The position numbers and the translations under genes were made by a program. This document shows positions 5,306 through 22,016 of a stretch of DNA of 64,000 bases, in pieces. The notes below the pieces were generated by a model. That model saw nothing but the letters and a program-made list of their open reading frames with translations. It was not told the DNA's origin and made no database searches. Numbering within the stretch: position 1 is the stretch's first letter; the number at the start of each line of letters is the position of its first letter. This DNA is from Gammaproteobacteria bacterium (GTDB lineage Bacteria; Pseudomonadota; Gammaproteobacteria; Natronospirales; REEB76), in assembly GCA_036383255.1 (NCBI GenBank), contig DASVOS010000018.1:219432-283431 (forward strand), in the 5' to 3' direction.

Positions 5306-6103
5306 TACGTAGACGGCCACCGCAGTGTAATTGTCCTGGCTGGGATGCATCGCCTCGGCTACCTGCGCGCTGAGGTGCGTGAGCAGCGCCTGCGGATCGG
5401 CGCTGCGGGCCACCGTGGCCTCCATCTGCCATCCCGCGAAATGCTCCCACAGGCCATCGCTGCATAGGAGCAGCACGTCCCCCACCCGGGGGGGCACGCC
5501 GGCGGCGCGCGTGCCGATCAGCAGCGCATTGTCGCCACCCAGGCAGCTGATGAGGCGCGAGCGCTCCGGGTGGCTGGTCACGTCGGCTTCGGCGATCTCC
5601 CCGGCGGAGACCAGGAGCTGCACCACGCTGTGGTCGCGGGTGTGCCAGAGGAGCTTGCCGTCGCGGAAGTGATAGAGCCGCGAGTCCCCGCAGTGGGCCC
5701 AGGCCATGCCGTCGTCGACGATGCCGAGCAGCACCAAGGTGCTGCGCATGGTGGCATGCTCCGGCTCCGCCTTCTGCCGGGCCTTGAGCTGGGCGTGAGC
5801 GTCGCTAACCGCCTGCTTCAGCTTGTCTTCCAGGCGCGGCGCGGCACTGTGCTCCAGGGACGCGAGCCCCGCCTCCACCGCCACCTCCGCCGCGCGCGCG
5901 CCACCGCGGTGGCCACCGAGGCCGTCCGCCAATGCGTAGTAGCCTATGCCGCTGCCGGCGATACCGAGCCGGTCCTCGTTGTAGCTGCGCATGCCACGGG
6001 CGCTGAAAGCCGCGCTCAGGAGCTTGAGGCCGTTGCCCAGGATGACGTCGGGCAGGGGCGTCGCACTGCCCTCGGCGAGGGCTTGCGGCGCGGCCACGTT
6101 CAC
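5297..6103 (-). CDS. PP2C-family Ser/Thr protein phosphatase (Stp1/PrpC type)
   Basis: A 268-residue metal-dependent phosphatase that probably reverses the neighbouring kinase. PP2C motifs run in order: RGMRSYNEDRLG (40-47, first metal Asp), YALADGLGGHRGG (56-68, the DGxGG loop), WAHCGDSRLYHFRDGKL, RDHSVVQLLVSAGEI, LLCSDGLWEH, and the C-terminal DNYTAVAVYV with the last metal Asp. No signal peptide or membrane segment is present, so it is cytosolic. Its start overlaps the kinase stop by four bases, and the pair forms one operon. The last codons take part in the terminal inverted repeat of element A1. Confidence 0.93.
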   Translation of the reverse strand: MNVAAPQALAEGSATPLPDVILGNGLKLLSAAFSARGMRSYNEDRLGIAGSGIGYYALADGLGGHRGGARAAEVAVEAGLASLEHSAAPRLEDKLKQAVSDAHAQLKARQKAEPEHATMRSTLVLLGIVDDGMAWAHCGDSRLYHFRDGKLLWHTRDHSVVQLLVSAGEIAEADVTSHPERSRLISCLGGDNALLIGTRAAGVPPRVGDVLLLCSDGLWEHFAGWQMEATVARSADPQALLTHLSAQVAEAMHPSQDNYTAVAVYVTQ

Positions 6104-8184
6104 GGCTTGAAATCCACACGCATGCGGATGCGCTTGCGCTGGCGCACGCCGTCCTTGGTATAGGGCGAGAACACCCAGCCGTGCACCGCGTGCATGGCCG
6201 CATCGTCGAAGACATCCTTGGGGGAGGCATCCACCACCTCGATGCTGGAGGTGCTGCCGTCGACATTGACGTTGAACTCGAGCTCCACCCAGCCGGCGAC
6301 CTTGTCCTTCACGCTGGAGGGATACCTGGGGACAGGATTGCTTAGGAGCTTGGGCATCACCTCATCGGCGGCCGGTGCGGGCGCGGTCCTACCCAGGCCG
6401 GTGGCCGCCACGGCGGAACTGCTCTTGGACTGCGTCTTGGCGACGCGCTTGGGCAGCGCTTCCTTCTTCACGGGCTTCTTGGGCACCGCTGCGGGCGCTG
6501 GCCGGGCCGCCTTCAGGGCCTCTGCCAGGGCGCTGCGGGCTTGCGCTATATAAGGATCGTCCGGCGCCTGGGTCTCCAAGTCATGCAGTGCCCCGCTGGC
6601 ATTGGGCTGGGCCGGCGCAGAGAGCTGCTTCTTCGCCAGGAGGTCCTTGAAACGGGCTTCGAGCTCGGCGGTGGCGGCCGCCTTCCGCAGCTTCGCCAGC
6701 GCGGCCTCGGCCTCGACGCGATGGATGCAATCGCCGCAGGCCTGCAGATAATCCTGATAGGCATCGATCCTATCGGCCGCCACAGCGGCCTGGAAACGCG
6801 CCTCCTCCCCGCCGCCGCCGGTGCGGCGCGCGTATACCAGGATCGACACGGCGAGCACCAGCATCACCAGCGCCGTGAGCACGATCCGCACGCCGCGCGG
6901 CTCCTTGAGCTGGCGTGCCATACGCCCGGTAAGGGTATTGGGTTCCTGCGCCACGGAGTCCAGCGCCGTCTCCCAGCGCAGGCGCAAGCCCGCGAGCCAG
7001 GCCTTGAGGTACTGCTTCAGCGGCGTGCGCTGGACCAGCACCTCGGTGGCATTGGGGCGGCGGGTGCCCTCGATGAGCGGCCCCAGGCTGTCCTGCTTCT
7101 CGGTCGGGAACGAGACCACGGTGGCCTCGGAGGCGGAGACGCCATGCCGCGTGCCGCGGCTCTCCGCCGGCAGCGTCGGCACCGACATCACCCCGTGCTG
7201 CAGCTCCGGCACCTCCTGCAGGCTCTCCGGCACCTCGATCACGTGCGGCGGCACAGGTGAGCCGCGCATGCGCTCCCGGAATTCATGGGCGCTCTGCGGG
7301 CGATCGCGCACCCGGAACTGCAGGGCCCAATCCACGCATTCCAGGAGCTGGCGCGAGTACTGCTCGGCGCCGCGCACGTTGGCGACCGCGTAGGGATCCT
7401 CGGCGCCGTCGCTGATGGCGGCGCTGCGGCGCGCCGCGTCTGCCGGCGCATGCCCGAACATGCAGTAGTAGAGACTGGCGCCCACCGCGTACAGGTCGCT
7501 CCAGGCGCCCTGGCGGCCGTCGCTCGAATACTGCTCGATGGGCGCGTAACCCGGCGTCACCAGCGAGGTGAGGCTGCGGCTCTGGGCGCCGATGGCCTGG
7601 CGTACCGCCCCGAAATCGATGAGCATGGGTCCGCCGTAGGCCCGCACGTAGATGTTGCTGGGCTTGATGTCGCGGTGCACCAGCTGCAGGCGGTGCAGCG
7701 CCTCCAGGCCGTCCAGCACCGGCAGGAAGATCCCGAGCAGCCGGCCTTCGTCCAAGGTGGGCCCATAGCGCTTGAGGTACTGGCTGAGGGTCATGCCCGG
7801 CTCGAAGTCCATCACCATATAGGCGGTGCCGTTCGCCTCGAGCAGGCGCGACACGCGCACGATGTTCGGATGCTTGAAGCGCGCCAGCGCGCGCGCCTCC
7901 TCCTTGAAGCGCTCCAGCCCCCAGCTGTAGGAGTCGGCGTCGAACTCGGACTTGGGCACCACGCTGTTGTCGGCGTTGCGTACCGCGAACTCCTGCGGCA
8001 GGAATTCCTTGATGGCGACCAGCGAGTTGAGGTTGGTGTCCTGGGCGAGATAAGTCAGGCCGAAGCCGCCGTGTCCGAGCAGCCGACCGATGATGTATTC
8101 CTGGAGCCTGTGGCCAATCGCGAGGGCGCTGGCATGTGTCGGCACTTGATGGACCCCTGCGAGGAAATGCGCCTTCAACCGCAT
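6100..8184 (-). CDS. Transmembrane Ser/Thr protein kinase with C-terminal TonB domain
   Basis: A 694-residue kinase. The Hanks-type domain spans about 30-305: glycine loop LLGHGGFG (36-42), K59 in VAIKEFL, E96, catalytic HRDIKPSN (170-177), DFG (190-192), and PGYAPIEQY activation segment. A linker of about 125 residues follows. One membrane helix is at about 433-451 and an Ala/Lys-rich stretch comes after it. The last ~85 residues form a TonB C-terminal domain ([35 protein letters not shown]). The kinase would be cytosolic and the TonB domain periplasmic. A GTG at 8145 preceded by AGGGG with good spacing is an alternative start, making the protein 13 residues shorter. Fusion of a kinase to a TonB domain is unusual. 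Confidence 0.9.
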
Positions 8185-13457: not shown

Positions 13458-14390
13458 TTACTTCTTCTTGCCCTTCTTCTTGTCTTTCTTGTGCTTCTTC
13501 TTCGTCTTCTCTTTCTTCTTCTTCACTTTCTTCTTCTCGGCCTTCTTGGGCGCGGCCTTCTTCGCCGGCTTGGGCTTCGCGGCAGGCTTGGCCTGGGCCT
13601 TGGCGACCGGTTTCGCCGCGGCCTTGGCCGCGACCTTGGGCTCCGCCTTGGCGGTGGAGGCCGCCTTCGCGGCAGCCGCCGCCTTCGCAGCCTTCGCCGG
13701 CGGCAACGGCTTCACAGGCACCACCACCTTGCGCAGTCCCTTGGAGATCGGGTCCAGCACCGTCACCATCCGCTTCATGATGTCTTTCACGTCACCCACC
13801 GCATCCACGGTCTCGATACGACCCTGGTCCCTGTAGTAGCCGATGAGCGGCTTGGTCTGCCCTTCATACACGCGCAGACGGTTGCCGATGGTCTCCTCGT
13901 TGTCGTCAGCCCGGTGGTGCAGCGGGCCGCCGCAGCGGTCGCACTGGTCCTCCAGGCGCGGAGGATTGGTATAGACGTTGTAGGCGGCGCCGCAGTTCTC
14001 GCAGGTGCGGCGGCCGGTGAGGCGCTGCATCAGGATGTCGAAGTCCACCTCCATCAGGATGGCGGCATCGAGCGGCTGGCCGATGGTGCGCAGCATGCCG
14101 TCCAGGGCATGGGCCTGGGGGATGTTGCGGGGGAAACCGTCGAGGATGAAACCCTTCTTGGCGTCCGGGTTGCGCAAGCGCTCGCGGATGATGGCGAGCA
14201 CCAGGTCATCCGAGACCAGCTGGCCGGCGTCCATGGCGGCCTTGGCCTGCAGCCCCAGGGGGGTGCCGGCGGCCAGGTTGGCCCGCAGCAGGTCCCCGGT
14301 GGATACGTGGGGGATGCGGTATTTCTCGGCGAGCAGCTTGGCTTGGGTACCCTTGCCGGACCCGGGCGCTCCGAGCAGCACGATTCTCAT
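13458..14390 (-). CDS. adk: Adenylate kinase with zinc-type LID and long lysine/alanine-rich tail
   Basis: A 310-residue protein. Residues 1-222 are adenylate kinase: P-loop GAPGSGKGT (7-15), STGDLLRA, LDGFPRN, and a LID with C130, C133, C150 and C153 (CENCG and CDRCG) that should bind zinc. From about 225 to the end is a tail not found in standard Adk (about 215-220 residues). It is first Ala/Lys/Pro-rich, then nearly all lysine over the last ~40 residues, resembling histone H1-like tails. The core should interconvert AMP, ATP and ADP. The tail may bind nucleic acid or polyanions; that is inference. TATAAC at 14414-14419 (reverse) may be its -10 box. Confidence 0.95.
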   Translation of the reverse strand: MRIVLLGAPGSGKGTQAKLLAEKYRIPHVSTGDLLRANLAAGTPLGLQAKAAMDAGQLVSDDLVLAIIRERLRNPDAKKGFILDGFPRNIPQAHALDGMLRTIGQPLDAAILMEVDFDILMQRLTGRRTCENCGAAYNVYTNPPRLEDQCDRCGGPLHHRADDNEETIGNRLRVYEGQTKPLIGYYRDQGRIETVDAVGDVKDIMKRMVTVLDPISKGLRKVVVPVKPLPPAKAAKAAAAAKAASTAKAEPKVAAKAAAKPVAKAQAKPAAKPKPAKKAAPKKAEKKKVKKKKEKTKKKHKKDKKKGKKK

Positions 14391-14593: not shown

Positions 14594-15301
14594 CTAGTTA
14601 CAGGTCTTCGGATCAGGCAACTGCTGCAGCGCGGGAGGCCTCAGGGCCAAGGGGATGCCCACGCCGGCCGCCCCGGCGATGAACACATATTGTCCAGCCG
14701 TGGTCTTGGTCTCGCCCCCCTGGTTGCTGAGGGCGATGGCCCCGGACTGCACGCCCGCGTACAGCCCGTCCTTCGGCGCCGGGGTAATGTCAGTGCAGTC
14801 GGCCGCGCAGAGCCGCACCTCATAGTCGGTGCCGCGGATGCCGATGGTCGCCACCGGCGTCTGCACCGCGTAGTCCTCGCGCCGGGTGTGGCCGATGAGT
14901 CCGCTCACGGCGCGGAACCCGCCCTTGAGCAGCCGGAAGAACGCGCTCTCCTGCCGTGCAGGCTGGGCCGGCGCGTTAGGGGCGGCAGCGGCCGGGCGGG
15001 CCCCGGCGTACTGGTAACGCTCGATCTGGAACCGGGACTCCGGCCGCAGCAGCACCCGGCCGCCGTCGGTGAACTCGATGTTCACGTAGCTCGAGCTCGC
15101 GGTGATGATCACCTCGCCCTCGTACACCGGCGCCCCCTTCAGGAGGTCGCGGATCTCGCCCGAGGGGGCCGCCACGCTCACGTGACCCGTCACCAGGGTG
15201 GCGCTCCCCACCGCGGCGGCGGGGTTGGTATCGGCATAGGCGCTCAGGGCCCCGAGCAGCAGGGCGCAGGCGGCGAGGGAGACGAGGTTGGGTAGGCGCA
15301 T
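14594..15301 (-). CDS. FecR-domain protein, exported
   Basis: A 235-residue protein with a signal peptide (LPNLVSLAACALLLGALSAYA) and a FecR domain. The domain shows VGSATLVTGHVSVAAPSGEIRDLL and, typical of the family, GAPVYEGEVIITASSSYVNIEFTDGGRVLLRPES. A second conserved block is VATIGIRGTDYEVRLC. Two close cysteines (CAADC) could form a disulfide. No membrane helix follows, so unlike the FecR anti-sigma protein it should be periplasmic or secreted. The ATG at 15301 with GAGG upstream is preferred to a TTG at 15313. It is the third gene of the operon, nine bases after the exoprotein stop, and probably assists or modifies the exoprotein. Confidence 0.85.
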   Translation of the reverse strand: MRLPNLVSLAACALLLGALSAYADTNPAAAVGSATLVTGHVSVAAPSGEIRDLLKGAPVYEGEVIITASSSYVNIEFTDGGRVLLRPESRFQIERYQYAGARPAAAAPNAPAQPARQESAFFRLLKGGFRAVSGLIGHTRREDYAVQTPVATIGIRGTDYEVRLCAADCTDITPAPKDGLYAGVQSGAIALSNQGGETKTTAGQYVFIAGAAGVGIPLALRPPALQQLPDPKTCN

Positions 15302-15309
15302 AACTGTCC

Positions 15310-18300
15310 TCAATGGCAGACCTGGGCGCTGCCGCTGTCCTGGGTGATTAGCTCGACCGGATTGCCGTCCGCATCCAGGACGATGACCGGGTCGCCATCC
15401 TTGTCCTTGCCGTCATCGGTGGTGTCGTTGCCGGTGGAGCTGGGGTCGATCTCGCCGGAGGTGGGTGGAGTCACGGGCGGTCCCAGCACCGACTGCAGCG
15501 AGACCACGAGGCCCGTGCTGGTGACGTTCTCCAGGCCGGTGACGAGGCCGAAGGTATCGATGACGAGGTTGTTGTCGCCGATGTCGAAGGCGCCATCGGC
15601 ACCGAGGGTCACGGCCCCCGTCTGGGCTCCGTTGCCGATGGCGATGGTCACGCCCGAGAACATGCTCAGGAAGTCCAGGTTGCTGAGGTTGAAGGCGCTC
15701 CCGGTCCCCGGCTGGTCCTCGACGCCGATGCTGGCGGTGGGATCGATGGGCGACACCTGCACCAGCGTGCCCTTGGGTACCGAGACGGCGCCCAGGATGC
15801 TGACGTTGGCGGCCTGCAGGTAGAGGTAACTGCCGGTCAGGGTGAGGTTGCCCAGAGTCAGGTCCCCGCCGGCGATGAACGCGCCGTTGGGATTGCTGGC
15901 GCCGGGCGCGATGCCGAGCTGTCCCAGCCCCAGGAGCAGGGTCAGGTCGCCATTGATGCCGGGCACGGTGCCATTGCCGATGGTGATGTCGGTGCTGGAC
16001 ATGTCGATGTCCTTGCCCGCCACCAGCGCCAGGGCGCCGGCGGTGATGGTGCCGGGACCGCCGCCGTTGTGGATGGTGCCGCTCGCGGTCGCGGACAGCA
16101 CGCCCGCGGTGAGGTCGATGCCGCTCAGGATGATGTCCCGGTCCGCCACCAGCTCCATCTCCCCGCTCACGTGCATGGTCGCGCCGGTCAGGTCGATGTC
16201 GCCGCCGGCGACCATGGTCACGTCCGTCGCGCCCAGCACGCTGAAGGCCGGCAGGCCGCTGGAGCCGAAGCCGGAACTGCTGGAACTGGGGCGGCCGATG
16301 ACGTTCTTGATCGCGTCGAAACGCTTGCCGACGGTGGAGATGTCGCTGGTGATGTCGCCCCCGGCGGTGATGCTCACGTTCCCGCCGCCCATATCCACTA
16401 CCGTAGGCACATAGACCCCGCCGGCCGCCTTCAGTGTGAGGTCACCGCCGAGGGTGACTGCGCCCGGGGTGCCGCCCGCGCCCACGGCGGCCAGGGCCAC
16501 CAGCAGGCTGCCGCCGGTGAAGACGGCGGGGGTGCTGGAGACGCGGGTGTCGAGGATGCTGTAGTTCCCCGCGGAAGCCGAAGCGGAGAGCCCGCCCAGC
16601 TTCACGCTGCCGCCGACGATCTGCACGCCCACGATGCCCACGCCCTTGACGCTGACGCTGCCCTTCACCTCGATGGCGCCGGCGCTGCCGCTGTTGCCGA
16701 TGTTGAACCCGGTGAGCTCGCCCGGGCCTGTGAAGTGGGTGTGATAGAGCGCGGCACCGCCGTAGGAGGTGACGTGGGTGTCCAGGTCCATGGAGCCGCC
16801 GCTGCCGGTGATGCTGACGTTGCCGCTGACGGTCACGTCGTGCCCACGCAGGCCGCCGCCGCCGGTGGGACCCTTGACGGTCACGTTGCCGGCCACGTTG
16901 ATGGAGGTGCTGCTGCCGGAACCGGTCTCGATGTTGATGCCGGCCTCGCCGCCGTTGATGTCGAAGCTCTGCGCGAAGTCGCTGCCCGAGAACGACCCAC
17001 CGACATGGAAGGAGCCGCTACCCACCGCCACGCCTTTCGTGGCAGTGGCGCCCAGGCTCTTGGTGTGGACCTGCCGGCCTTCGATGTCGATGTTGGCCCG
17101 GCCCACGCCGGTGACCGTCACCGCGCCCAGGGTCACCTGGTCCGCCGGGGGCGGCAGGCTGCCGCCGGAATTGCGGTCCAGTCCCACCTGCACGCCGGCC
17201 AGGCCCACGGTCTGGTGTCCGTTCATGAGCCGGCCATCGGCCAGGCCGCGGAAGAACAGGGTGGAACCCACGTGGCTGCTGCCGCTGAAGCTGCCGTGAG
17301 GCGTGGAGACGGTGCCGGTGGCCGCGGTGGCCGTCGCGGTGACGTTACCGGCCACCACGTCCGAGGCGAAAAGGTTCACCAGCGCCAGGCCCTTGCCGGA
17401 CACGGTGACGGTGCCTGCATTGAGCATGGAGGTGGCGCCGTGGACGCTGGAAGCGCCGCTCCAGCCGCCAAGGTCCACCACCGCCGCGCCGGCGGTGTTG
17501 TGGGAGGCATAGATGATGTTGGTGGGCACCGAGCCCGTGTCCTTGGTGTGGATGTCGTGGCCCTTGCCGGTGGCGGTCACGCCGTGCACCTTGATGTCGG
17601 CGCCGCGCACCATCACCAGGGCGTCGGTGCCGGTGACGGCGATGTTGCCGCCCACGCTGGCGCTGCCGAGGCTACCCTGGGCGATCACCTGGAAGAGCCC
17701 GGCACCCGCCTGGCCGCTGCCCGTGAAGTGGCGGATCGGCCCCACCTCGTTGGGGCTGCTGTGGCTGAACGCGCCGGCGTTCGCCGTGACGTTGACGTTG
17801 CCGCTGATCTTCACGTCATGGGCCGCGCCGTTGGGGCCGAACGCACTGATCGTGACCCCGGCCGCCACGGGCGCAGCCAGGCCCGGCATCGGGATGCTGA
17901 AGGACGAGCCGCTCAGCTTGCCGGTGGCGGTGATGGCGCCGTTGACGTGCACGAAGTTGCCGCCGGTCTGGGATTGGGCGCTCACGTAGATGTGGGCCTT
18001 GCCGGTGGCCGAGACCGCGGTGAGGGGGCCGGTGATGACGTCACCGTTGCCGAACAGGCTTACGTTGATGCTGGGCGCGCTGATGGCGCCGACAGTGATG
18101 TCTGCGCTCTGGTTGCTGCGGAATATCGAGATGTTCACGCCGCCGGAACCGTGGCCGTTGGCGCTGACGTTGCCGGCGGTTATGTTGGCCGAGCCGCCAC
18201 CCGTGCCGCTGCCGCTGGCATGCAAGTTGACACCACCCGCAACGCCCGCGCCGGTGGCGGTGACGTTGCCTACTGAGATCAAGGGATGGGTGCCGGTGGC

Positions 18301-20121
18301 AGTGATGCTCACCTTCTTGCCGGTAACGTTGGCGAGCTGGATGCTGCCACCGCCGGAGCTGGTGCCACCAATGTAGTGCGCCTGGATGTTCACAGGGCCG
18401 CCGGCGGTGATATTTCCGGTGACGTGGATGTTCGCTCCACTAGAGTCGCCGCCACCCTTGCCGAAGAGCGCAACCGAGCCGTTATCGGCCGTTATGGTGC
18501 CCGAGACGTCGATGTTGCCGTCTCCGAACGCGGCGGAGTTATGGGAGGCAGTCAGGACGACTCCCCCGCCAACCGCCGGACCCGTGGCATGCAGGTTGCC
18601 GGTGGTGATGTTCGCGGCATCGATACTGATCGACCTGGCGGCGACGTCCGCCACGGTCACATTACCCCCACCGCTGCGGCCGGCGCTGGCCTGGAAGTCG
18701 CCGGCGATGTGGATGGTGAGTCCCGTGAGGTTGATGGTCCCGCCGCTGCCGATGGACACGCTGGGCGTGCCGGTGCCGACGCAGACGCCGCCGATGCCGC
18801 AGCTCACACCGCCGACGGTGCCGATGGCGATCCTGAGGTCGCCGGCGCCGGTGGCGTTGATGCTGGTGCCCGTGGTCCTGGAGATGGAGTTGGACGCGAC
18901 GATGGTGACGTTGCTGCCGGCGTTGAGCTTGCTGACGATGAAACCGGTGCCGATGGTGCCGGTACCCACCGACACGGAACTCCGGGTGCCGGTGTTGGTG
19001 ATGTGGATGACCGAAGGATCGATCAGCAGGCTCCCGCCCTTGCCTGCGGTGACGTCGCCGGCGATGCGCAGGGTATGCCCCGACAGCTCGATGAAGCCGC
19101 CGTCGGCACCATTGCCCGCGGCGTCGATCACGGAGGTGGGCGCGAGCTCGGTATGGCCGTCGCCTCTTATGATGATGGTGCCGCCGTCGGTATGAGGAGC
19201 CCAGGCCGCAGCGCTGGCATCCAGGGTGCCGCTGTTCTCGATGTCGCCGCCCTGGGCCGAGAGCACGATCACCCCGCCGTCGGACTGCAGTGAGCGCGCG
19301 GCGATGAAGCCGGAGTTGTTCACCGCGGTCGCGGTCAGGGCGTTCGCCACGTCGGCGGTCATCACCACCGCGCCGCCGTTGGCGGTGATCTCGCCGGTGT
19401 TGTTGACGCCCGCGAGGCGCGAGAGCGTGGCCCCGTCCACCACGTAGCTCACCAGTTGGTTGTGGTCCAGGGTCAGGGTCGCGCTGTTGCCGGCAGCGAG
19501 CTCGACCCGCCCGCCCTGGGCGTCGATCCGCCCGCCGTTCTCCACATAGTCGCCCGCCAGGACGATGTAGCCGCCGCGGTCGGCGCTCAGGGTGCCCTGG
19601 TTCACCACGCTCGCGTCCGGCGCGCCCGTGCCCTTCTGGAACACGTAGCGGCCCTGCATGAAGTCGCCGTCCTTGATGTCGAGCGTGCTCGCCACCAGGC
19701 CCTGCACGTCCAGGCTCGCGCCCGGCGCGAAGTAGATGCCGTTGGTGTTCACCAGGAACACCTGGCCGTTCGCCAGGATGTCGCCGAAGATGCTGGAGGG
19801 GTTGTTGCCCACTACCCGGTTCAGCACCACCGCCGAGCTGTTCGGCTGCACGAACTGCACGTACTGGCCGCTGCCGACGTTGAACTGCTGCCAGTTGATC
19901 ACCGCCCGCTGCGAGCCCTGGTTCACCACCATTCCGTTCGCGGAAGGCGTGCTGATGGTGGCGCTGCCCGCCACCACCTGACCGCCGGTGGGGTTCGCGA
20001 GTGCCAGCATCGGCACGCCGGCGCCCAAGGCGCCGGCGCCGAGGCGCGCCAGGGTTCGCCCGTGCAGCGCTTCCTTGAGGATGGCCTTGAGACCCCGTTC
20101 GGCGATGTTGTGCTTGGACAT
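15310..20121 (-). CDS. Filamentous haemagglutinin-type two-partner secretion exoprotein (TpsA)
   Basis: A 1603-residue secreted beta-helix protein. After a long signal peptide ending near PMLALA-NPTGG, the TPS domain follows (VVAGSATISTPSANGMVVNQ, VINWQQFNVGSGQYVQFVQ, NPSSIFGDILANGQVFLVN, NTNGIYFAPGASLDVQGLVAST). The rest is repetitive, Gly/Ala/Thr/Val-rich, with recurring units of the type VTATGxGxAGG and ISVGNVTA, as expected for a parallel beta-helix. The C-terminus turns acidic (DDGKDKDGD) and ends with a lone cysteine. It should be moved across the outer membrane by the FhaC-like protein encoded upstream and act as an adhesin or matrix protein. Long open frames on the opposite strand are composition artefacts. 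Confidence 0.93.
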   Translation of the reverse strand: MSKHNIAERGLKAILKEALHGRTLARLGAGALGAGVPMLALANPTGGQVVAGSATISTPSANGMVVNQGSQRAVINWQQFNVGSGQYVQFVQPNSSAVVLNRVVGNNPSSIFGDILANGQVFLVNTNGIYFAPGASLDVQGLVASTLDIKDGDFMQGRYVFQKGTGAPDASVVNQGTLSADRGGYIVLAGDYVENGGRIDAQGGRVELAAGNSATLTLDHNQLVSYVVDGATLSRLAGVNNTGEITANGGAVVMTADVANALTATAVNNSGFIAARSLQSDGGVIVLSAQGGDIENSGTLDASAAAWAPHTDGGTIIIRGDGHTELAPTSVIDAAGNGADGGFIELSGHTLRIAGDVTAGKGGSLLIDPSVIHITNTGTRSSVSVGTGTIGTGFIVSKLNAGSNVTIVASNSISRTTGTSINATGAGDLRIAIGTVGGVSCGIGGVCVGTGTPSVSIGSGGTINLTGLTIHIAGDFQASAGRSGGGNVTVADVAARSISIDAANITTGNLHATGPAVGGGVVLTASHNSAAFGDGNIDVSGTITADNGSVALFGKGGGDSSGANIHVTGNITAGGPVNIQAHYIGGTSSGGGSIQLANVTGKKVSITATGTHPLISVGNVTATGAGVAGGVNLHASGSGTGGGSANITAGNVSANGHGSGGVNISIFRSNQSADITVGAISAPSINVSLFGNGDVITGPLTAVSATGKAHIYVSAQSQTGGNFVHVNGAITATGKLSGSSFSIPMPGLAAPVAAGVTISAFGPNGAAHDVKISGNVNVTANAGAFSHSSPNEVGPIRHFTGSGQAGAGLFQVIAQGSLGSASVGGNIAVTGTDALVMVRGADIKVHGVTATGKGHDIHTKDTGSVPTNIIYASHNTAGAAVVDLGGWSGASSVHGATSMLNAGTVTVSGKGLALVNLFASDVVAGNVTATATAATGTVSTPHGSFSGSSHVGSTLFFRGLADGRLMNGHQTVGLAGVQVGLDRNSGGSLPPPADQVTLGAVTVTGVGRANIDIEGRQVHTKSLGATATKGVAVGSGSFHVGGSFSGSDFAQSFDINGGEAGINIETGSGSSTSINVAGNVTVKGPTGGGGLRGHDVTVSGNVSITGSGGSMDLDTHVTSYGGAALYHTHFTGPGELTGFNIGNSGSAGAIEVKGSVSVKGVGIVGVQIVGGSVKLGGLSASASAGNYSILDTRVSSTPAVFTGGSLLVALAAVGAGGTPGAVTLGGDLTLKAAGGVYVPTVVDMGGGNVSITAGGDITSDISTVGKRFDAIKNVIGRPSSSSSGFGSSGLPAFSVLGATDVTMVAGGDIDLTGATMHVSGEMELVADRDIILSGIDLTAGVLSATASGTIHNGGGPGTITAGALALVAGKDIDMSSTDITIGNGTVPGINGDLTLLLGLGQLGIAPGASNPNGAFIAGGDLTLGNLTLTGSYLYLQAANVSILGAVSVPKGTLVQVSPIDPTASIGVEDQPGTGSAFNLSNLDFLSMFSGVTIAIGNGAQTGAVTLGADGAFDIGDNNLVIDTFGLVTGLENVTSTGLVVSLQSVLGPPVTPPTSGEIDPSSTGNDTTDDGKDKDGDPVIVLDADGNPVELITQDSGSAQVCH

Positions 20122-20160
20122 GGCGGTATCTCTCTATAGAGGGGCCTTGAAGCCCCGTGC

Positions 20161-21855
20161 TCAGAAACTCTTGCCCAGGGTGAACCAGATATGGGGGCCG
20201 CGGTCCGCCGGCTTCGCGCCGAGGGCCACCGCCGCCGTGGATACGTCGTCGCTGGGGCGGTAGCCGCCCACGGCCCAGGCAAACTGCAGGCGCGCGTTCC
20301 AGCCGGTGAGCGAGGGCTGCAGCTGCAGCTCGGTGCCCAGGCTCGCGATGCCGGTCGAGTCGCGCACCCCGTAGTTGGTGCTCTGCGGGTCGGAGGACTT
20401 GCTCCACACCTTGCCCGCGTCCCAGAACAGGCCCCAGGCCAGCGGGAACGAGGGGCTGGTGGTGAGGCTGCGCAGCACCTCGACCGAACCGAACACCCCG
20501 CTGTCGCCGCGGATCTCGGCGGACTGGAAGCCGCGCACGTTGCCGGGGCCGCCCAGGGAGTACTTGTCGGCGTCCACCAGCGGGTCGACCGAATAGGTCA
20601 GCGTGCCCTGGGCGGTGAGCTGCCAGCGCTCACCCATGGGGGTGAAGTAGTTGCCGTCCAGCTCCACCCGCAGCCGCTCGGCGCTGTTGGAGCTGCCGTC
20701 GTTGTGCCTGCCGTTGGTCCAGAGGCTACCGCTCAGGGTGTAGTAGCTCTGGTCCTCGCGCTGGCGGTTGTAGAGCATCGTCAGCTGCAGCAGCGTGATG
20801 TTGGTGGTCACCTGCGTGTTGCCGCTGACCTCGTTCTTGCTGGTGTTATGGTTCACGCCCACGCCCCAGTTCAGGGTCTCCTCGCGGGTGCGCTCCACGT
20901 CGTCCTGCCAGTTGACGTTGCCGTTCTGGGTGCTGCCGCTGATGCCGAGCGCCGCGAACGGGCCCTGCCCCACCCGGTAATGGGCGCGGTTGTAGCCGAA
21001 CGAGAGTTCGCTGCTGTCGCCGGTCGGGAGCTGGTAGTTGAGGCGCCCATAGTTGAGCAAGTTGCCCTCGGCGTGGGTGACGCTGGCGAGCAGCTGGTCG
21101 CCGCTGCCGGTCAGGCCGTTGATGAAAACGTTGCCGTTCACGCGCCAGCGGCCGATGGCGGCGCGGCCGTAGTCGTCCACCGAGACGTCGGCGGCGTAGG
21201 GGTGCTCATCCACGTTGAACAGCACGTTGGAGGTGCCGAAGTCGCTGCCGGGGCTCAGCACCGCGCGGGCGGTGACGCCCGGCAGCGCGTCCATCTGCAG
21301 CACCGCGCGCTCGGCGTCGGCGTTGGTGTAGACCTCGCCGGGCCGAAGGGATCCGGCGCGCCGCTCCAGCACGCGGGTGCGGGTGCGGGTGTTGCCCTGC
21401 ACGCTCACCGTGCCGATCTTGCCCTCGATCACCTGCAGGCGGACGGTGCCGCCCTTGAGGGTCTGGGCAGGCAAGGACACGTAGGCAAGGCCGTAGCCCT
21501 GGGCGCGGTAGTAACGGGTGAGCACGTCGGCGACGTCGTAGAGCTGGGCCAGCGTGAGGCTCTGGCCCACATAGCCGGCGACCTGGGCCTGCAGCACGTC
21601 GCTGGGGATGACGCTGTTGCCCTCGATGCTGAAGCCGGCCACCTTCACGGCTGCCCCGCCTGGGGCGACGCCGGATGGCGTGACCGGTGCATTGCTGATG
21701 GCCGGAGGGGGAGCCTTCTTGGGCTGGACCGGCTGCTTGGGCAGGGTGCTCTGCACCTGGCCCGGTGTCGGGGCGCCGGGCGCCGCCGATACCGCGGTGG
21801 AAAACAACAAGACCGTCACGAACGCGACGGTGGAACGCGGAGCGCCTCCCTTCAC
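20161..21855 (-). CDS. ShlB/FhaC/HecB-type two-partner secretion transporter (TpsB)
   Basis: A 564-residue outer-membrane transporter of the Omp85 superfamily. A signal peptide (STVAFVTVLLFSTAVSAAP) is followed by a Pro/Lys linker and the N-terminal helix region. POTRA domains come next: VKVAGFSIEGNSVIPSDVLQAQVAGYVGQ and the ShlB-type YYRAQGYGLAYVSLPAQTLKGGTVRLQVIEGKIG. The barrel ends with a final aromatic strand (IWFTLGKSF). The VRGF signature of loop L6 is seen in GPGNVRGFQSAEIRGD. The GTG at 21855 is preferred because GGGAGGGG precedes it; a TTG at 21867 is possible. It is the first gene of the tpsB-tpsA-fecR operon, with a CRP-like box 162 bases upstream. Confidence 0.93.
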   Translation of the reverse strand: MKGGAPRSTVAFVTVLLFSTAVSAAPGAPTPGQVQSTLPKQPVQPKKAPPPAISNAPVTPSGVAPGGAAVKVAGFSIEGNSVIPSDVLQAQVAGYVGQSLTLAQLYDVADVLTRYYRAQGYGLAYVSLPAQTLKGGTVRLQVIEGKIGTVSVQGNTRTRTRVLERRAGSLRPGEVYTNADAERAVLQMDALPGVTARAVLSPGSDFGTSNVLFNVDEHPYAADVSVDDYGRAAIGRWRVNGNVFINGLTGSGDQLLASVTHAEGNLLNYGRLNYQLPTGDSSELSFGYNRAHYRVGQGPFAALGISGSTQNGNVNWQDDVERTREETLNWGVGVNHNTSKNEVSGNTQVTTNITLLQLTMLYNRQREDQSYYTLSGSLWTNGRHNDGSSNSAERLRVELDGNYFTPMGERWQLTAQGTLTYSVDPLVDADKYSLGGPGNVRGFQSAEIRGDSGVFGSVEVLRSLTTSPSFPLAWGLFWDAGKVWSKSSDPQSTNYGVRDSTGIASLGTELQLQPSLTGWNARLQFAWAVGGYRPSDDVSTAAVALGAKPADRGPHIWFTLGKSF

Positions 21856-22016
21856 GACCCCTCCCAAAATTGTGTTGCTGGACAGTGCCCTGCAGGTCCC
21901 GGAACCCCAGATGTGCCGGTGCCGGGCCCTTCAATGCCGCGGCGCGCAGGTCATGGGTACTCTATCTGGAAACCTCTATCCCAGGACATGTTTTAACAAT
22001 ATTGCCGGTCCCGGCC

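Follow-up and report, generated by a model that had tools for sequence, protein, structure and literature searches.

A PpkA-like serine/threonine kinase joined through a membrane helix to a TonB C-terminal domain, a probable periplasmic binding head

What does a TonB C-terminal (TonB_C) domain do when the protein that carries it begins as a Ser/Thr kinase? The question is raised by a gene in the window analysed here (the whole stretch of DNA, 64,000 nucleotides), whose features and positions are listed in Table 1. The coordinates given for this gene in an earlier note on the same DNA were right. The single membrane helix that the note had placed at about residues 433-451 was located by hydropathy at 434-452, the best hydrophobic 19-mer (mean Kyte-Doolittle 2.8), which all top-scoring windows overlapped. 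Charges flanking the helix were 5+/2- versus 4+/3-, a weak positive-inside bias, so the topology of the protein rests on the need of the kinase for ATP. Full-length AlphaFold2 prediction gave a confident kinase fold (pLDDT mostly >90), the membrane helix and a helical stalk, with both linkers disordered and moderate confidence only for TonB_C.

Table 1. Positions of the kinase-TonB_C gene, its parts, the overlapping PP2C gene and the REC-like proteins with the same arm
Feature	Position	Strand	Basis
Kinase-TM-TonB_C protein P0001, 694 aa	6100..8184	(-)	Open reading frame, Pfam, uniform GC3
Ser/Thr kinase domain, residues 31-298, PpkA-like, catalytic residues complete	7291..8094	(-)	Pfam, alignment, 5hnv, AlphaFold2
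Cytoplasmic juxtamembrane linker, residues 320-433, mostly disordered; helices ~389-426	6886..7227	(-)	AlphaFold2
Single membrane helix, residues 434-452, without SxxxH	6829..6885	(-)	Hydropathy, motif check
Periplasmic helical stalk, residues 460-559, TPR-like hairpins	6508..6807	(-)	AlphaFold2; resembles TPR-like module of relatives
Disordered Pro/Lys-rich linker, residues 562-618	6331..6501	(-)	Composition, low pLDDT
TonB_C domain, residues 619-693	6106..6330	(-)	Pfam, TIGR01352, Foldseek to 1u07, 6i97, 2gsk
PP2C phosphatase P0002, 268 aa	5297..6103	(-)	PP2C_2, Stp1/IreP model, GTGA junction
REC-like-TM-TPR-TonB_C proteins	L192 4648-6606, L193 2723-5611, L195 3118-4857, L202 167-1978		

For the N-terminal part, Pfam matched Pkinase at residues 31-298 (E 3e-32, 112 bits, cut-off 31.7). 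The earlier note had claimed all kinase catalytic residues, and the Hanks-type motifs were indeed complete (G-loop GxGGFG, K59, E96, HRDxKxxN and DFG), the key residues being invariant or almost so across 20 aligned relatives. The nearest solved kinase to this region was PpkA (PDB 5hnv, E 1e-56, 196 bits); when the whole protein was searched against solved structures, PpkA scored 194 bits and the group ranked next, which includes StkP and PknB, at most 82 bits. Relatives of the kinase were common in the class: 108 of the 369 genomes sampled gave a match with an E value of at most 1e-45, and the closest of them shared 45-54% identity across the kinase domain. The same-family genomes sampled were without this kinase, their best matches being no better than E 1e-28. 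TPR, SUMF1, PEGA, SH3 and other domains made up the tails of PpkA-like relatives; TonB_C was found in none of those from other genomes whose loci were fetched for comparison, and no TonB_C open reading frame was among the matches listed in a scan of named genomes (80 loci). The PknB/StkP PASTA kinases with Stp1 likewise combine a kinase, one helix, an extracytoplasmic arm and a PP2C nearby, but Pfam found no PASTA repeats in this protein, and the NCBIfam PASTA-kinase model matched the kinase region only (130 bits versus a cut-off of 450). PADLOC matches to PD-T4-6 and mad6 spanned little beyond the kinase domain and were not counted as evidence of defence.

At the other end, the profile search of the last 90 residues that the earlier note had named as its refuting test recovered TonB_C (PF03544) at residues 619-693 (E 6e-12, 46 bits, cut-off 24.6), NCBIfam TIGR01352 (tonB_Cterm) passed as well (48.2 versus 27.1), and the TonB motifs listed in the note were right. 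The YP and GWVxxxF motifs were common to relatives, and the domain was intact. By sequence it matched an entry named TonB2 (2k9k, E 1.5e-9) and the TonB of 1u07 (E 1.3e-6). When the periplasmic part was predicted alone, with an alignment of relatives, AlphaFold2 gave TonB_C a pLDDT of ~88-98, and the best Foldseek matches of this model were TonB C-terminal domains, including those of FoxA and BtuB complexes (1u07, 6i97 and 2gsk among the matches); as modelled, the C-terminal domain has a TonB fold. Pfam found no further domain in the periplasmic part. The likeness to a canonical TonB energy transducer lies in the sequence and predicted fold of this domain, whereas the N-terminal kinase and a helix without SxxxH set the protein apart.

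The PP2C gene reported in the earlier note as overlapping the kinase stop starts at GTG 6103 and shares 4 bp (GTGA) with it. Its product matched Pfam PP2C_2 (E 6e-11) and a Stp1/IreP model at E 3e-43, yet below the cut-off of that model. A PP2C gene also lies near two other kinase loci of this genome. The other neighbours are ThiD/ThiE-like and HemL-like genes (named from sequence by eye); there was no ExbB or ExbD among the neighbours, the ExbD genes of the genome sitting elsewhere, and no TonB-dependent receptor gene was seen adjoining the kinase gene. The genome holds six TonB-dependent receptor plug domains, possible partners of TonB_C, and three FHA proteins, possible phosphothreonine readers. 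Elsewhere in the window, a two-partner secretion set occupies 14594-21867 (-), with a ShlB/POTRA_2 transporter (20161-21867, -), a TPS-domain exoprotein of 1603 aa (15310-20121, -) and a FecR-domain protein (14594-15313, -), and an adenylate kinase (13458-14390, -) carries a Lys/Ala-rich C-terminal tail of ~80-100 residues past the ADK domain.

Recurrence was searched with the C-terminal part as query in 369 class and 398 phylum genomes, most long open reading frames being fetched and scanned; as the best candidates per genome were scored, the counts are lower bounds. At least three further kinase-TM-TonB_C proteins were found in the same class (G184, L200; G383, L201; G704, L237), each with Pkinase and TonB_C by Pfam; within the stretches examined, none had a coupled PP2C beside it. 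The G704 protein (L237 597-3242) has an extra N-terminal region of ~220 residues with no Pfam match. In a 94-row kinase tree the four kinase-TonB_C proteins needed four label changes, at least three of them forced by well-supported branches, long branches leaving their exact placement unsure. Since their kinase domains do not cluster in the tree, the fusion probably has several independent origins. In four further proteins (Table 1) a REC-like domain, called as Response_reg by Pfam in L193 only, replaces the kinase, ahead of a membrane helix, TPR-like repeats and TonB_C; these proteins were more frequent in the sample than the kinase version. Another TonB_C protein (L196 2680-3364, G014, same order) has a signal-like N-terminus and seems to be secreted; its TonB_C is one of those closest to that of the kinase, possibly a domain of the donor type.

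The domains and their order within one open reading frame, the overlapping PP2C gene, the PpkA-like kinase, the missing motor motif and the missing T6SS sheath gene are thus observed. The parts are known and the combination is rare; the arrangement is a variant of transmembrane receptor kinases, and no description of a kinase-TonB fusion was found in the literature searched (open-access papers only, which is weak evidence of novelty). The protein was not filed under the T6SS PpkA pathway, the PASTA kinases or the energy-transducing TonB proteins, because one tested defining feature of each was lacking.

At about even confidence, the protein is read as an unpowered receptor kinase of the PpkA/PppA type that crosses the membrane once and has TonB_C for a periplasmic head. 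The kinase domain would lie in the cytoplasm and one helix would span the inner membrane; a helical stalk plus a flexible Pro/Lys linker, ~165 residues in all, would take TonB_C towards the peptidoglycan and outer membrane. There TonB_C would bind a partner. The most plausible mode is beta-strand addition, an outer-membrane protein supplying a TonB-box-like peptide; contact with peptidoglycan or dimerisation are the alternatives. Binding or its loss could alter dimerisation and autophosphorylation of the kinase, the translationally coupled PP2C would reset the signal, and the protein would exert no ExbBD-driven pull. The periplasmic domain of PpkA is thought to be the site of action of the activators TagR and RtkS, and PppA is the phosphatase opposing PpkA (PMC6082577). 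PpkA takes an activating protein at its periplasmic domain; by this analogy, the most likely role of the TonB_C head is to receive an envelope cue or to tether the kinase to the outer membrane or peptidoglycan. The receptor reading is supported by the same TonB_C arm on the REC-like proteins. The inside-outside signalling or envelope anchoring suggested in the earlier note stands as the most natural reading of the confirmed architecture; the kinship with PpkA, the recurrence and the missing ExbB/ExbD motif had gone unseen there. FecR/FecI cell-surface signalling is a functional analogy, in that outer-membrane information is carried to the cytoplasm; here, by contrast, there is no FecR domain and the output would be phosphorylation.

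Sensing and anchoring by TonB_C are not separated by the sequence. An arm that merely tethers and places the kinase, at the septum, a pole or a secretion site, with no ligand switch, is a possible but less likely explanation: TonB C-terminal domain dimers may take part in peptidoglycan binding (Ton review, PMC9022066), and repeated attachment to unrelated cytoplasmic domains, kinase and REC-like, fits a generic tether, but receptor kinases with a PP2C partner take input at this position (PpkA, PMC6082577). We think it rather unlikely, though conceivable, that the kinase reads receptor occupancy, with TonB_C competing with the real TonB for boxes exposed by loaded transporters and transport thereby becoming a phosphorylation signal; if true, such a TonB would act in signalling without pulling, and several kinase lineages would each have arrived at it on their own.

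An SHLS motif within the membrane helix is what TolA and TonB use to bind their motors (PMC12204202). By motif check, SxxxH was absent from the helix of the kinase and of the other TonB_C signalling proteins, and present in the TonB encoded beside ExbD on C18 of this genome. Because the helix lacks this Ser-xxx-His motor motif, ExbBD-driven pulling by the kinase-TonB_C protein is unlikely, and TonB_C probably serves this protein for binding, not for energy transduction. A powered arm, driven by ExbBD and regulated by the kinase from inside, has a slim chance. In its favour are the four ExbD genes of the genome and, on C17, a TonB-like protein whose gene lies ~0.4 kb past an ExbD gene and whose helix also lacks histidine and SxxxH, so the rule is not strict and the motif no absolute guide; against it stand the missing motor-binding signature (PMC12204202), a membrane helix lying mid-protein behind the kinase domain, and adjoining genes that are not ExbBD. 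At G000:C17:77600-79447 (L004, L007), two tandem TonB-like genes follow an ExbD gene, and the first is without the helix histidine.

A true PpkA, regulating a T6SS by threonine phosphorylation, is very improbable. The kinase does have its closest solved relative in PpkA of the PpkA/PppA/Fha pathway, and the pathway's PpkA-like kinase domain, single membrane helix and PP2C partner gene were all found, PpkA being likewise a membrane-bound kinase with its sensor domain in the periplasm; but TonB_C, the sole periplasmic domain that Pfam finds, is the head here, the solved PpkA reads HRDISLDN where this kinase has the canonical HRDIKPSN, and the sheath gene TssC/VipB was absent from a genome rated 100% complete, by a search that found VipB in an E. 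coli control. The association with T6SS was rejected on the negative search for the sheath gene. An artefactual joining of two genes, through a frameshift or an assembly error, the other refuting case named in the earlier note, can be dismissed, since no stop interrupts the 694-aa frame (window 8184..6100, -), GC3 is uniform (0.78-0.97 in each 60-codon block) and so gives no hint that the frame shifts between the kinase part and TonB_C, and the same domain order occurs in three other genomes.

The recurrence of the domain, on four kinases or more and also on response-regulator-like proteins, suggests that TonB_C has a general use, separate from ExbBD, as a sensor or tether that binds the envelope. 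Few routes tell the cytoplasm of the state of the outer membrane, and a kinase with a TonB_C periplasmic head would be a new one; the kinase-TM-TonB_C protein may let the cell interior sense the outer envelope.
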